NCBI GenBank assembly: GCA_036405135.1
Contig: DASWYF010000010.1
Span: 62,001 to 126,000 of the forward strand
Origin: Verrucomicrobiia bacterium
Lineage (GTDB): Bacteria; Verrucomicrobiota; Verrucomicrobiia; Limisphaerales; JAEYXS01
Direction: 5' to 3'
Length of the DNA stretch: 64,000 nt
Shown: one piece after another, positions 20,167 through 41,583 of the stretch
How positions within the stretch are numbered: position 1 is the first letter of the stretch
Layout of the letters: each line of letters starts with the position of its first letter
Notes under the pieces: generated by a model
The model's input: only the letters and a program-made list of their open reading frames with translations
What the model was told of the DNA's origin: nothing
Databases searched by the model: none
Made by a program: the position numbers and the translations under genes

Positions 20167-21726
20167 TTACTTCTTCATCAGCGCATACTCCATGCTATCC
20201 ACCAGCGCCTGCACGGACGCCTCGATGATGTTATCGTGCACGCCTACCGTGCCCCATTCATTCTTGCTGTCCGTGCTGATGATCAGCACGCGCGTCTTCG
20301 CGGCCGTGCCCGTCGCACTATCGATGATGCGCACCTTGTAATCCGTCAGCGCCACCTTCTTCAATTTCGGGAAGAAACTCGTCAACGCCGCGCGCAAGGC
20401 GCTGTCCAGCGCATTCACCGGACCATCACCCTCAGCAACGGTATGCGCGAACTTCTCGCCCACCTTCACCTTCACCGTCGCCTGACAGACCGAATTCTCC
20501 CCGTCACGACGCATCGAGACGTGATACCCATCCACCTTGAACGGCAGCTCCTGGTGACTCAGCAAACGCCGGATCAGCAACGCCAGCGAACCCTCCGCCG
20601 CCTCGTACTCGTAGCCGATGTTCTCCAGCTCCTTGATCTTCGCCGTGATCGTCTTCAGCTCCGGCGTCTCCGCCGTGATCTTGAAGCCCAGCTCCTGCGC
20701 CTTCACGAGGATGTTCGTGCGGCCCGACATATCGCTCACCAGCACGCGCCGATGATTCCCCACCGCCTCCGGATTGATATGCTCGTAGCTCCGCGCCACG
20801 CGCTCGATCGCGTGTACATGGATGCCGCCCTTATGCGCGAACGCCGTCTGGCCCACCCACGGCTGCCGCGGATCATGCCGCATATTCGCGATCTCATTCA
20901 CGAACTCCGAAAGCTCCTTCAATTTCGGCAATGACTTCGCCGGCACACCCGTGCGCTTCATCTTGAACTCCACCAGCGGAATCACACTGATCAAATCACA
21001 ATTCCCCGTGCGCTCACCGTAACCATTGATCGTCCCTTGGATGTGGCTCGCACCTGCCTCGAGAGCCGCAATGCCATTCGCCACGCCCAGCCCGCAATCA
21101 TTGTGCGTGTGGATACCGATACGCGCATTCAACTTCCCGCGTGCGAAAGAAGTGATCGCCGTGATCTCACTCGGCAGACAACCACCATTCGTCTCGCACA
21201 GACAGATCACATCCGCGCCTGCCTTCTCCGCTGCTTGCCACGTCGCCAGCGCATACTCCGCGTTAAACTTATACCCGTCGAAACTGTGCTCGGCATCATA
21301 CACCACGATCTTCCCATGATCCTTCAAGAAACGGATCGTGTCGCCGATCATCGCCAGATTCTCCTCCGGCTTCACGCGCAACACCTCATTCACATGAAAG
21401 AGCGAGGTCTTCCCCACGATTGTGATCACCGGCGAACCGGAATCCAGCAGCATGCGGATCTGGTCATCGTCCTCCACCGCCACACCCTTTTTACGCGTGA
21501 ACCCAAACGACGCGATCTTCGCATTCTTCCACTTGCGCTTTTTGGCTTGTTGGAAGAACTCCATGTCCTTGGGATTCGACCCCGGCCAGCCGCCCTCAAT
21601 ATAATGCACGCCGAAAGCATCGAGCCTCTCCGCGATGCGGAGCTTGTCCGCCAGCGAGAAATTGATTCCTTCGCCCTGCGAACCATCCCGCAGAGTCGTA
21701 TCGTAGATTTCGACGTTACTTTTCAT
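20167..21726 (-). CDS. cimA: (R)-citramalate synthase
   Basis: This 519-residue member of the HMGL/LeuA family begins with the catalytic DTTLRDGSQGEG at 9-20. The TIM-barrel motifs IGIHTHNDCGLGVANG and GTINGYGERTGNCDL give the metal-binding histidines. The C-terminal LeuA dimer/regulatory domain starts near residue 390. The absence of leuA-type GFHHPKA signatures and the VEIYDTTLRDGSQGEGINF start match CimA (acetyl-CoA + pyruvate to citramalate, a threonine-independent route to isoleucine). A threonine dehydratase is also encoded at 39859, so both routes to 2-oxobutyrate may exist. The following genes are a toxin-antitoxin pair and valS. Confidence 0.9.
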   Translation of the reverse strand: MKSNVEIYDTTLRDGSQGEGINFSLADKLRIAERLDAFGVHYIEGGWPGSNPKDMEFFQQAKKRKWKNAKIASFGFTRKKGVAVEDDDQIRMLLDSGSPVITIVGKTSLFHVNEVLRVKPEENLAMIGDTIRFLKDHGKIVVYDAEHSFDGYKFNAEYALATWQAAEKAGADVICLCETNGGCLPSEITAITSFARGKLNARIGIHTHNDCGLGVANGIAALEAGASHIQGTINGYGERTGNCDLISVIPLVEFKMKRTGVPAKSLPKLKELSEFVNEIANMRHDPRQPWVGQTAFAHKGGIHVHAIERVARSYEHINPEAVGNHRRVLVSDMSGRTNILVKAQELGFKITAETPELKTITAKIKELENIGYEYEAAEGSLALLIRRLLSHQELPFKVDGYHVSMRRDGENSVCQATVKVKVGEKFAHTVAEGDGPVNALDSALRAALTSFFPKLKKVALTDYKVRIIDSATGTAAKTRVLIISTDSKNEWGTVGVHDNIIEASVQALVDSMEYALMKK

Positions 21727-21827
21727 TGCTGCAAATAGTTTGGCGGAACAGAACTACCCCGCCAAACGGAACGGACTTTCTAAGATATTGGGGCCGTGGA
21801 TGCAACCTTTCGTAGCCGCCAGTAATG

Positions 21828-29282: not shown

Positions 29283-29486
29283 GTTTCGAGTTTCTTGTTG
29301 TTAGTTTCGGGTCGTGTTTCACGCACGCTCGTCCCATGCATCTCCAAGTGCTTTTCGTCAATCCAGAGAATAGAATGGAATGCCGACACCTCCGATAAGG
29401 AAGTGATCGGGATCACCATCAGCGCGAAACCCTCTATCGCATCCAAACGCAAACAACTCGAAACTCAAAACAAGAAACCCGAAACT
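29283..29486. repeat. Spacer with inverted TTTCGAGTTTC arms
   Basis: The left arm, GTTTCGAGTTTCTTGTTGTT plus TTTCGGGT at 29283-29312, and the right arm at about 29453-29486 (AACTCGAAACTCAAAACAAG, then AAACCCGAAACTC) are inverted. They enclose about 140 bp with no gene. A similar arm pair occurs at 39561-39640. Confidence 0.5.
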
Positions 29487-38578: not shown

Positions 38579-39561
38579 AAGAGTCTCCTTCCATCATGGT
38601 CGTTGAAGACGAAGGCATCGTCGCGCGCGATCTCAGCCAGCGGCTGACCCATCTGGGTTACCGCGTCCCCGCCATCTCGATGACGGGCGAAGACGCGCTC
38701 AAGCAGGCCGAGGCCATCCATCCCGACCTCGTGCTCATGGATATCAATTTGCGCGGTGGCATCGATGGCGTTGAGACCGCCACCCGCTTGCGCCAGAAGC
38801 ACAACGTGCCGGTGATCTATCTCACGGCGTATTCGGATTCATCGACTCTGGATCGCGCGAAGCAGACGGAGCCATACGGTTATCTGCTGAAACCATTTGT
38901 GGAACCGGAGCTGCATGCGGCCATCGAGGTGGCGCTCTTCAAACACCAGCGCGAACTGCAGAGCGAAACCAATGGGCCTCGTGCCGACAAGACCATGGAT
39001 GCTGCGCCGGATGGCGTTCTCCTGCTCGACATGGAAGGCAAGATCACCGAGGCAAACTCAGCAGCGGAAAATATCCTTGGTGCAACGTCAAAAGATCTGA
39101 AAGGGAAGATTTTTTTGGAAAAGGTCGTATCCTTCGAATGGCATACCTGGTTTGGTCATGAAATGGAAGAATTCGCCGCAGGCAGGAAATCGCAAGGCGA
39201 TACGTGGATGGAGATCCATGCGTTGCGGCATGATGCCACGACGTTCCCCGCTGAAGTCACCATGAGTCTCGTGGAGGCCAAGGGGCAAAGGTGGATGGTG
39301 ATCTTCATGCGTGATATCTCTCGCCGACGCCGTTTCGAGCAGGAGGTGGACAAGCTCATCCGCAGCCTCCAAAGCTCGCTGGCGAACATGAAGACCTTGC
39401 GCGGCATGATCACGATCTGCACCACGTGCAAAAAGATCCGCGATGACCGCGGTGATTGGAGCACGATCGAGCGTTACCTGATGTCCCGCACACCCGCGAC
39501 GTTCTCGCACAGTTACTGCCCGGATTGCCTGGCACAGGTGCGGAGAAGTCTGGGGTTATAA
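38575..39561 (+). CDS. Response regulator with PAS domain and C-terminal four-cysteine motif
   Basis: This 328-residue protein has a receiver domain with D56 (LVLMDINLRGGIDGVETA) and the conserved lysine in YGYLLKPF. A PAS domain (MDAAPDGVLLLDMEGKITEA to FMRDISRRRRFEQE), a coiled helix, and a C-terminal tail follow: ITICTTCKKIRDDRGDW, then SHSYCPDCLAQV. The tail has two CxxC pairs that could bind a metal; the 'CxxCKKIRDDxGxW' tail is known from other receiver-PAS proteins, without a function I can state. There is no DNA-binding output domain, so it probably acts through protein interaction. It is translationally coupled to the kinase. Confidence 0.88.
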   Translation: MKESPSIMVVEDEGIVARDLSQRLTHLGYRVPAISMTGEDALKQAEAIHPDLVLMDINLRGGIDGVETATRLRQKHNVPVIYLTAYSDSSTLDRAKQTEPYGYLLKPFVEPELHAAIEVALFKHQRELQSETNGPRADKTMDAAPDGVLLLDMEGKITEANSAAENILGATSKDLKGKIFLEKVVSFEWHTWFGHEMEEFAAGRKSQGDTWMEIHALRHDATTFPAEVTMSLVEAKGQRWMVIFMRDISRRRRFEQEVDKLIRSLQSSLANMKTLRGMITICTTCKKIRDDRGDWSTIERYLMSRTPATFSHSYCPDCLAQVRRSLGL

Positions 39562-39640
39562 GTTTCGAGTTTCTGGTTTCGAGTTGGAGTGAGCGGACGC
39601 CGCTAAATAACTCGAAACTAGAAACCAGAAACTAGAAACC
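39561..39640. repeat. Inverted TTTCGAGTTTC-type arms
   Basis: 39561-39585 carries AGTTTCGAGTTTC then TGGTTTCGAGTT, and 39609-39640 carries AACTCGAAACTAGAAACC then AGAAACTAGAAACC. The arms are inverted and about 24 bp apart. Related arms occur at 29283-29486. Confidence 0.55.
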
Positions 39641-39655
39641 AAAATTTCCCCATCC

Positions 39656-39684
39656 TTGACAAAAGACCGTTTTCTGCGAATTTT
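39656..39684 (+). promoter_or_regulatory. Sigma-70-type promoter of the dehydratase leader
   Basis: A perfect TTGACA -35 (39656-39661), a 17-bp spacer and an AATTTT -10 (39679-39684). Transcription would begin about 5-7 nt before the leader ATG at 39697, leaving almost no 5' UTR. Confidence 0.5.
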
Positions 39685-39696
39685 CCGCCGTTAGTA

Positions 39697-39771
39697 ATGC
39701 GTTCTAACTCTGCCAATATTATTATGATCGCCGGGATCATGATTATTGCCTCCTCCTCGGGGCAAGGGTAG
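39697..39771 (+). CDS. Isoleucine-rich leader peptide (24 aa)
   Basis: The frame reads MRSNSANIIMIAGIMIIASS then SGQG and a TAG stop. Six of 24 codons are isoleucine and three methionine, concentrated between codons 8 and 17. It lies between a promoter-like sequence and a terminator (39803-39835) in front of the threonine dehydratase, the first committed enzyme of isoleucine synthesis. This matches ilv leader peptides of enteric bacteria in logic, not in sequence. Stalling at Ile codons (39718-39747) would leave 39755-39762 free to pair with the 5' arm of the terminator. No Shine-Dalgarno is visible, which fits near-leaderless initiation. Confidence 0.7.
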   Translation: MRSNSANIIMIAGIMIIASSSGQG

Positions 39772-39836
39772 AGACGCGCATACATAAATAAGATTTCACC
39801 CTAAGCCCTGAGAGAATCCTCTCAGGGCTTTTTTGT
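39751..39836 (+). promoter_or_regulatory. Transcription attenuator: antiterminator/terminator pair before the threonine dehydratase
   Basis: The terminator is AAGCCCTGAGAG-AATC-CTCTCAGGGCTT followed by TTTTTG (39803-39836). The competing arm CTCGGGGC inside the last codons of the leader peptide can pair with GCCCTGAG of the terminator's 5' half, giving eight contiguous pairs with one G-U. A ribosome at the stop codon (39769-39771) would cover the competing arm and let the terminator form; a ribosome stalled at the Ile codons would not. Confidence 0.7.
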
Positions 39837-39858
39837 TTTCCGAAATCCAAAAAATCCC

Positions 39859-40860
39859 ATGAAAACTCCCATAGCCCAAAACGTATCGCTCTCTGATGTC
39901 ATAGCCGCCCAAGCTCGCATCGGTGGGGCGATTGTGCGGACGCCGTGCGAACGGTCCATGGGCTTGAGCGAGCTGACGGGCAGCGAGGTGTGGTGCAAAA
40001 GGGAATACCGGCAACGCACGGGGAGCTTCAAGGAACGTGGGGCGCGGAGTGCGCTAAGCCTGTTGCCGCGTCATAAGGCGAGGCGGGGAGTGATCGCGGC
40101 GTCTGCAGGGAATCATGCGCTTGGTCTCGCATGGCATGGGAAGCAGCTCGGCATACCCGTGACGGTGGTGGTGCCGCGCAATGCCTCGCAATTGAAGGTA
40201 GCGAAGTGTCGGCAGCTCGGCGCGCATGTGGTGCTGCATGGCGCGACGTTTGATGAGACGCGGGCGTATGCGCTGGAGCTTTCGGAGGAGTGGGGACTCG
40301 CATATCTGCCGCCGTTCGATGATGTGAACGTGATCGCCGGGCAGGGAACGCTGGCGCTGGAGTTGCTGGAGCAAGTGCCGGAGTTTGATGCGGTGCTCGT
40401 GCCAGTAGGTGGTGGCGGATTGCTGGCGGGGGTGGTGACGGTGTTGCGATCTTTGCGACCCGGCGTGCAAGTGATCGGTGTGGAACCGGAGAACGCGGCG
40501 TGTTTCACCAGTGCATTGCAACATGGCGGGCCAGTGAAGGTGAAGACGAGTCCGACGCTGGCGGATGGGCTGGCAGTGGCCGAGGCGGGTCGGGTGACGT
40601 ATGCGAATGCGGCACCGTGGGTGGATGATGTGGTGACAGTGAGTGAAGCGGAGCTGGGCGAGGCGATAGCTGTTCTCTCGCGTGAAGAAGGCGCGGTGGT
40701 GGAAGGAGCAGGAGCGGCGGGACTGGCGGCGTTGCTCAGTGGTAAGGTGCCGTCACTGAGTGGGAAGCGGGTGGTGTTGCCACTGACTGGGGGAAATATC
40801 GATGCTCAGGTGCATGCAAGGGTGGTGACACAATATCAGAACGAGAAAGCGGCGGCTTGA
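39859..40860 (+). CDS. ilvA: Threonine dehydratase (threonine ammonia-lyase), short catabolic-type length
   Basis: This 333-residue PLP fold-type II enzyme has the Schiff-base lysine K58 in TGSFKERGARSAL, ASAGNHALGLAW for the substrate loop, the phosphate-binding VGGGGLLAGV near 183-190, and a C-terminal LPLTGGNID. It would deaminate threonine (or serine) to 2-oxobutyrate. It lacks the C-terminal ACT-like regulatory domain of classical IlvA, so allosteric isoleucine inhibition of that type is not expected. The Ile-rich leader and attenuator upstream argue for a biosynthetic role despite the short form. The gene symbol is by function; catabolic TdcB-like or serine racemase-like activity remains possible. 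Confidence 0.85.
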   Translation: MKTPIAQNVSLSDVIAAQARIGGAIVRTPCERSMGLSELTGSEVWCKREYRQRTGSFKERGARSALSLLPRHKARRGVIAASAGNHALGLAWHGKQLGIPVTVVVPRNASQLKVAKCRQLGAHVVLHGATFDETRAYALELSEEWGLAYLPPFDDVNVIAGQGTLALELLEQVPEFDAVLVPVGGGGLLAGVVTVLRSLRPGVQVIGVEPENAACFTSALQHGGPVKVKTSPTLADGLAVAEAGRVTYANAAPWVDDVVTVSEAELGEAIAVLSREEGAVVEGAGAAGLAALLSGKVPSLSGKRVVLPLTGGNIDAQVHARVVTQYQNEKAAA

Positions 40861-40915: not shown

Positions 40916-41167
40916 ATGAAAACGTGGCAGATTCAGCATGCGAGGAACAATCTGTGTCGCATCGTGAAAGCAGCCCAACAGGGGCATGCGCAGGAATTGA
41001 CGCGGCATGGGGAGGCGGTGGCGGTGGTGATCTCGATGAAGGATTATCGGAATCTGGCAGGCAAGAAAAAGGGCACGATGGCTGGGCTCATCAAGCGGTC
41101 GAAGGGATTGAATGTGGAGCTGGATATCAAGCGGTCCAAAAAGGCGGCGCGTGAGATCGAGTTATGA
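40916..41167 (+). CDS. Phd/YefM-type antitoxin
   Basis: This 83-residue antitoxin starts at the ATG at 40916 behind GAGAG, giving the classic MKTWQIQHARNNLCRIVKAA start. HGEAVAVVISMKDYRNL, the Phd beta-hairpin and helix, follows. A frame-compatible methionine seven codons upstream is less likely. The positively charged C-terminal half (KGTMAGLIKRSKGLNVELDI) would wrap the toxin. It overlaps the PIN-domain toxin by 4 bp (ATGA) and lies 55 bp after the dehydratase stop. Phd-fold antitoxins usually repress their own operon. Confidence 0.88.
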   Translation: MKTWQIQHARNNLCRIVKAAQQGHAQELTRHGEAVAVVISMKDYRNLAGKKKGTMAGLIKRSKGLNVELDIKRSKKAAREIEL

Positions 41168-41583
41168 ACGGGTTCTTGCTGGATACGCAGGTGATCAGCG
41201 AATTGATCCGGCCGCAGCCAGAGGCAACCGTTGTTGCCTGGTTGGAGGCGCAGGAATCGGACCGACTGTTTTTATCGGTTTTCAGCATTGGTGAGATTGA
41301 GAAGGGGATCGCGCGGGTGACGGATGCGCGGCGGCGGGCGAAGTTGCGGAAGTGGCTGGATGAGGATGTCAGCGCCACGTTTGCGGGGCAGGTATTGCCG
41401 GTGGATGAGGCAGTGTCGATCACTTGGGGCAAGGCATTGGCGCAGGTAAACCGGCCATTGCCAGCGATCGATTCGCTGATTGCCGCGACGGCGCTGCATC
41501 ATGGGCTGACGATGGTGACGCGGAATGAGGCGGATATGGAGTTGCCGAAGCTGGTGGTGTTCAATCCCTGGGAGATGAATTAA
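41164..41583 (+). CDS. VapC-family PIN-domain toxin
   Basis: This 139-residue PIN ribonuclease has the acidic active-site residues in FLLDTQVISEL (D7), FSIGEIEKGIA (Glu) and PAIDSLIAATAL (Asp). The last acidic position is in VTRNEADMELPKL, and the protein ends in a VVFNPWE tail typical of the FitB/VapC branch. It should cleave RNA and be held in check by the Phd-type protein encoded 4 bp upstream. The pairing of Phd-fold antitoxin with VapC toxin is common. The end of the gene converges on and overlaps the next minus-strand gene by 4 bp. Confidence 0.9.
   Translation: MNGFLLDTQVISELIRPQPEATVVAWLEAQESDRLFLSVFSIGEIEKGIARVTDARRRAKLRKWLDEDVSATFAGQVLPVDEAVSITWGKALAQVNRPLPAIDSLIAATALHHGLTMVTRNEADMELPKLVVFNPWEMN

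Follow-up and report, generated by a model that had tools for sequence, protein, structure and literature searches.

The closest described relatives of the system considered here are the enteric ilvGMEDA, ilvBN, trp and his attenuators, which combine an amino-acid-rich leader, protector, antiterminator and terminator hairpins, and a downstream gene. A 2013 survey suggested that amino-acid attenuators are perhaps of gammaproteobacterial origin, and the Rfam attenuators of that time sensed only his, leu, thr and trp (PMC3766115). The Corynebacterium ilvBNC attenuator, or ilvB-II motif, likewise joins a BCAA-rich uORF to a three-hairpin switch (PMC10272879, PMC11857589), and its leader peptide in C. 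glutamicum is said, as PMC10272879 cites Morbach 2000, to need no ribosome binding site for its formation. BCAA-rich uORFs have also been predicted outside enterics for the ilvB-OMG and Leptospira ilvB motifs (PMC10272879). In Sinorhizobium meliloti, the leader ORF of the trpLE(G) attenuator lies at the RNA 5' end and is leaderless (PMC7298713). The ilvB leader peptide of Streptomyces coelicolor is attenuator-like, yet changes to its regulatory codons were without effect (PMC1262725).

The locus studied here lies upstream of ilvA in a Verrucomicrobiia genome, within a stretch of 64,000 nucleotides (hereafter the window; Table 1). It is very probably a ribosome-mediated transcription attenuator that senses isoleucine via charged tRNA-Ile and controls ilvA. 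Judged by sequence, it would qualify as a trp/ilv-type attenuator: a short ORF is enriched in codons for the amino acid of the downstream pathway, a protector (1:2) hairpin is present although its register shifts between lineages, an intrinsic terminator separates leader ORF and gene, and the pairing and geometry are those of an antiterminator that excludes the terminator, being free when a ribosome stalls and covered when it reaches the stop. Unlike the enteric attenuators, only Ile codons are enriched, the target is ilvA or cimA, the 5' segment of the antiterminator precedes the leader stop, no Shine-Dalgarno site is seen for the leader ORF, and the peptide is unrelated. The Corynebacterium attenuator differs in controlling ilvB through Leu/Val codons in Actinobacteria, the ilvB-OMG and Leptospira motifs in their target (ilvB), sequence and lineages, and S. 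meliloti trpLE(G) in its Trp codons, its phylum and its demonstrated trans-acting products.

Table 1 Features of the ilvA leader and of the ilvA and cimA genes in the window.
Feature	Position	Strand	Basis
-35 box TTGACA	39656..39661	+	read directly in sequence
candidate -10 box AATTTT, weak	39679..39684	+	deduced from 17-nt spacing; fails consensus scan
leader ORF MRSNSANIIMIAGIMIIASSSGQG, 24 codons, stop TAG 39769-39771	39697..39771	+	direct reading; similar leaders in 54 other inspected loci
hairpin within Ile codons, 39721-39729 with 39735-39743	39721..39743	+	window fold; recoding test
protector (1:2) hairpin TTGCCTC/GGGGCAA, 39746-39752/39759-39765	39746..39765	+	fold and recoding test
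antiterminator 5' segment, CTCGGGGC (39756-39763) and AGGGT (39765-39769)	39756..39769	+	within last leader codons
antiterminator 3' segment, ACCCT (39798-39802) and GCCCTGAG (39805-39812)	39798..39812	+	overlaps terminator 5' arm
intrinsic terminator, 12-bp stem 39803-39814/39819-39830, T-run 39829-39834	39803..39834	+	fold; pair conservation
ilvA, 333 aa, limited to the catalytic domain of threonine ammonia-lyase; ACT domain absent	39859..40860	+	PF00291 287 bits
cimA	20167-21726	-	685 bits

The perfect TTGACA box and the 24-codon frame with six Ile codons (at 39718, 39721, 39727, 39736, 39742 and 39745) are present as the initial annotation of this DNA had described them. No -10 box before the window leader passes the consensus scan, AATTTT being the best candidate, and this weakness counts against the attenuator reading. 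A TTGAC motif lies 36-41 nt ahead of the leader ATG in all 15 ilvA orthologues. With the usual 17-nt spacer and start site, this spacing would place the RNA 5' end about 0-6 nt before the ATG. Judged by this spacing, leader translation may begin at the RNA 5' end itself or a few bases away, which would make the leader RNA near-leaderless.

An Ile-rich short ORF arose by chance in 136 of 20,000 random spacers; it is the conservation among orthologues that decides against chance. Ile makes up 18.8, 18.5 and 23.2% of codons in three leader sets, as against 1-7% for Val and 3-6% for Leu. Across 55 leaders the Ile codons are ATT (170), ATC (94) and ATA (0); the corresponding counts in seven window genes are 13, 81 and 5. 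One orthologue departs from the pattern: its leader (L009, MFNAALFNLLIMGPHLGQG, about 1458-1517) holds four Leu codons and one Ile. This possibly reflects a change of the sensed amino acid, and together with the Streptomyces precedent (PMC1262725) it counts against the attenuator reading.

The leader region folds 5.7 sd below shuffled sequences (z -5.7). The initial annotation had proposed a two-segment design; we find three hairpins instead, since the protector had gone unlisted, and in the window leader this hairpin competes with the antiterminator helix. The eight-pair alternative helix that had been proposed is present, with CTCGGGGC pairing to GCCCTGAG through one G-U, and is longer than stated, as AGGGT also pairs with ACCCT. 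The strong terminator, previously drawn to 39836, has its 12-bp stem and a T-run that ends two positions earlier. The hairpin within the Ile codons is possibly a pause hairpin; summed over 15 leaders, its stability beats 984 of 1000 synonymous recodings, which supports it weakly. A suspected long-range helix between GCGTC in the early leader and GACGC after the stop was set aside, as it is not conserved in all leaders. Directly after the leader stop, the motif (G)ACGCGC (39772-39779 in the window, and in relatives) is strongly conserved in the order.

Modelling a ribosome on each of the six Ile codons in turn gave the antiterminator as the most favourable fold (-18.8 to -25.9 kcal/mol) as long as the terminator 3' arm had not been made; with the ribosome at the stop, the antiterminator cannot form and only the terminator remains. 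The complete leader, folded at equilibrium, always forms the terminator, and the ribosome-free prefix prefers the antiterminator. The switch would therefore depend on co-transcriptional timing, which counts against the attenuator reading, and the protector would have to act by forming first. We propose that RNA polymerase would start the RNA on the leader AUG or a few bases ahead of it, and that a ribosome would start there without a Shine-Dalgarno site, as the promoter spacing suggests. If isoleucine is short, the ribosome would stall on one of the six Ile codons and leave the G-rich segment in the last codons free; this segment could then pair with the terminator 5' arm once made, a pairing that is computed and conserved, and read-through into ilvA would presumably follow. 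If isoleucine is plentiful, the ribosome would reach the stop and cover the G-rich segment, the terminator would form and transcription would stop close to 39834. With no ribosome on the RNA, that segment may be held by a small hairpin between it and the end of the Ile codons. A classical race of this type is described in PMC1183508. Sequence, pairing, conservation and codon enrichment are observed here; promoter use, the start site, translation and the direction of the response are what we infer.

Selection on the RNA itself was assessed by synonymous recoding, in which the codons of 15 leaders were swapped for synonyms drawn from local codon usage in 1000 trials, related sequences being counted as independent. 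The antiterminators summed to -310.7 kcal/mol against -225.5 (sd 12.3) after recoding, and the protectors to -152.0 against -92.4 (sd 9.1); for neither helix was any of the 1000 recoded sets as stable. Covariation was measured on 26 aligned leaders that span several families and orders, with counts not corrected for relatedness. The antiterminator retains its pairing in 93.2% of cells, and covariation is 0.265 compared with at most 0.118 when the partner is slid; pair 73-137 occurs as G-U, A-U and G-C, and pair 71-139 as U-A, C-G and U-G. The terminator also covaries, with 99% of its pairs kept and 17 double-changed cells. Orthologous spacers thus conserve both the Ile enrichment and the pairing, and the concern raised by the initial annotation that either might be missing falls away. 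Its proposal of ilv-type attenuation logic in a Verrucomicrobiota gene gains support from the conserved Ile enrichment, pairing and layout, and is probably correct.

A search at protein level through 320 genomes from the order (146 at first) returned 15 IlvA proteins of one clade, counting the window's own, with identities of at least 59%. A leader precedes each of these 15 ilvA genes (for example MLNFALPMMIPAIIISPSLGQG and MRNITVQPIMIMAIIIGSFSGQG) with a shared layout of TTGAC box, 19-24-codon ORF, Ile run, G-rich last codons, terminator with T-run, and gene. No leader was found before the next ilvA clades (42-57% identity) or other PLP paralogues. A covariance model built from the 15 leaders and run on the 320 genomes recovered these 15 and two more. 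One (L075, 1648-1979), from a third genome of the genus, is intact, and the ilvA start after it lacks about 40 codons and has a frame shift, through either assembly error or decay. The other (L073, 1621-1990) precedes a frame with only a remnant of the IlvA ACT domain, the catalytic domain missing, which would reflect decay or misassembly.

On 384 genomes of the class, the same model found leaders before ilvA in other families and, in two, before cimA (TIGR00977 citramalate synthase, 620-626 bits against a cut-off of 450). Citramalate synthase is the other entry to 2-oxobutyrate besides ilvA. The leader had initially been tied to the dehydratase gene; it is not confined there. A second covariance model, run on 387 genomes of the phylum and 150 of one family, found many more. 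Among the 55 leaders inspected, a set that takes 30 fetched matches from one search with the second model, 38 precede ilvA (one a remnant) and 17 cimA, and the strong matches inspected lie only before these two genes. Matches with weak E-values were read as ordinary gene-end terminators, the others being weaker ilvB cases. The latter are four loci of another family (L118-L120 and L123, near 1450-1640; model E 2.7e-5 to 6e-4), where Ile/Val-rich frames such as VSIIIAIIICVIIITPPGMA and a terminator precede a gene that we take, by reading of its sequence, to be ilvB, acetolactate synthase. These ilvB-type leaders may be separate from those of ilvA and cimA.

Nearly all genomes have a single model match. 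In family f72, each of the 22 genomes that were cross-checked has cimA; the leader is on ilvA where an ilvA of the leader clade exists (8/8) and on cimA where it is absent (14/14), the latter genomes either lacking any ilvA match or having just longer paralogues that resemble those of the leaderless clade. Because the genomes were picked by their hits and are related, this correspondence appears as a pattern, not a test. In a tree of 67 IlvA sequences, the 35 leader-bearing proteins form one clade (support 98/94) and the label needs one change, which would fit one origin on ilvA and vertical descent. It is conceivable, though we hold this tentatively and at slightly less than even confidence, that each genome has a single Ile attenuator, old in the phylum, on either ilvA or cimA, and that ribosomes load on a leaderless 5' end, initiation itself thereby helping to keep ribosome and polymerase in step.

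The best NCBIfam matches of the window IlvA are threonine ammonia-lyases, with scores below cut-offs because the C-terminal part is missing. The C-terminal ACT domain is absent from IlvA of the window and of f72 (loci concerned, besides the window: L008, L101, L103 and L104), and other leader-bearing orthologues keep it. With the domain lost, allosteric control by Ile may have been lost from these enzymes while attenuation remains. No leader was found before the window genome's own cimA; an inverted repeat (TTTGGCGG/CCGCCAAA, about 21739-21766) lies just upstream of its start. Palindromic repeats of GTTTCNNGTTTC-like units occur at 39554-39640 and 29283-29485, with 7 matches in the window where 0.01 would be expected, and also upstream of the L008 leader. 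Downstream of ilvA (40918-41583) are a frame that looks like an antitoxin and a VapC-like toxin with a PIN domain.

Other explanations were weighed against attenuation. A strong terminator here would set free a distinct transcript of roughly 140 nt, and this terminated RNA could mainly be a small RNA or small mRNA acting in trans, with control of ilvA secondary, as precedented by rnTrpL/peTrpL of S. meliloti (PMC7298713). We consider this improbable, since the peptide is poorly conserved outside the Ile run and the final G, and a trans role needs no fixed neighbour, yet the element stays beside ilvA or cimA. A riboswitch or T-box that senses isoleucine or tRNA-Ile directly, the reading frame being incidental, could also account for a terminator and rival helices upstream of a biosynthetic gene. 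That is very unlikely: no Rfam family, T-box included, matches at gathering score, and conservation tracks the start, Ile run and stop of the frame, while the RNA outside it largely varies.

Least credible of all is an ordinary terminator of the upstream gene next to a chance Ile-rich frame. The weak model matches in these genomes are indeed gene-end terminators, but here a promoter box separates the leader from the upstream gene, and several families and orders share the conserved frame, Ile run and alternative pairing. Attenuation by a translating ribosome thus remains our preferred reading. The Rfam leader families (his, leu, thr, trp and others) give no match at gathering score, only sub-threshold chance matches. 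The open literature searched holds no description of this device, and older work (Vitreschak 2004, Lopatovskaya and co-workers) might predict it. Set against that literature, novelty lies in the phylum, in a sensor for Ile alone and in the ilvA/cimA target pair; the proposed near-leaderless start, which has precedents elsewhere, also marks the device as a variant.

An Ile attenuator in several lineages of another phylum would mean that attenuation logic is wider than thought. Its place on the committed step, before either of two non-homologous entry enzymes, suggests that regulation follows the pathway step and not one gene. At about 140 nt, the element may also offer a compact model for attenuation in which the leader peptide is possibly leaderless.
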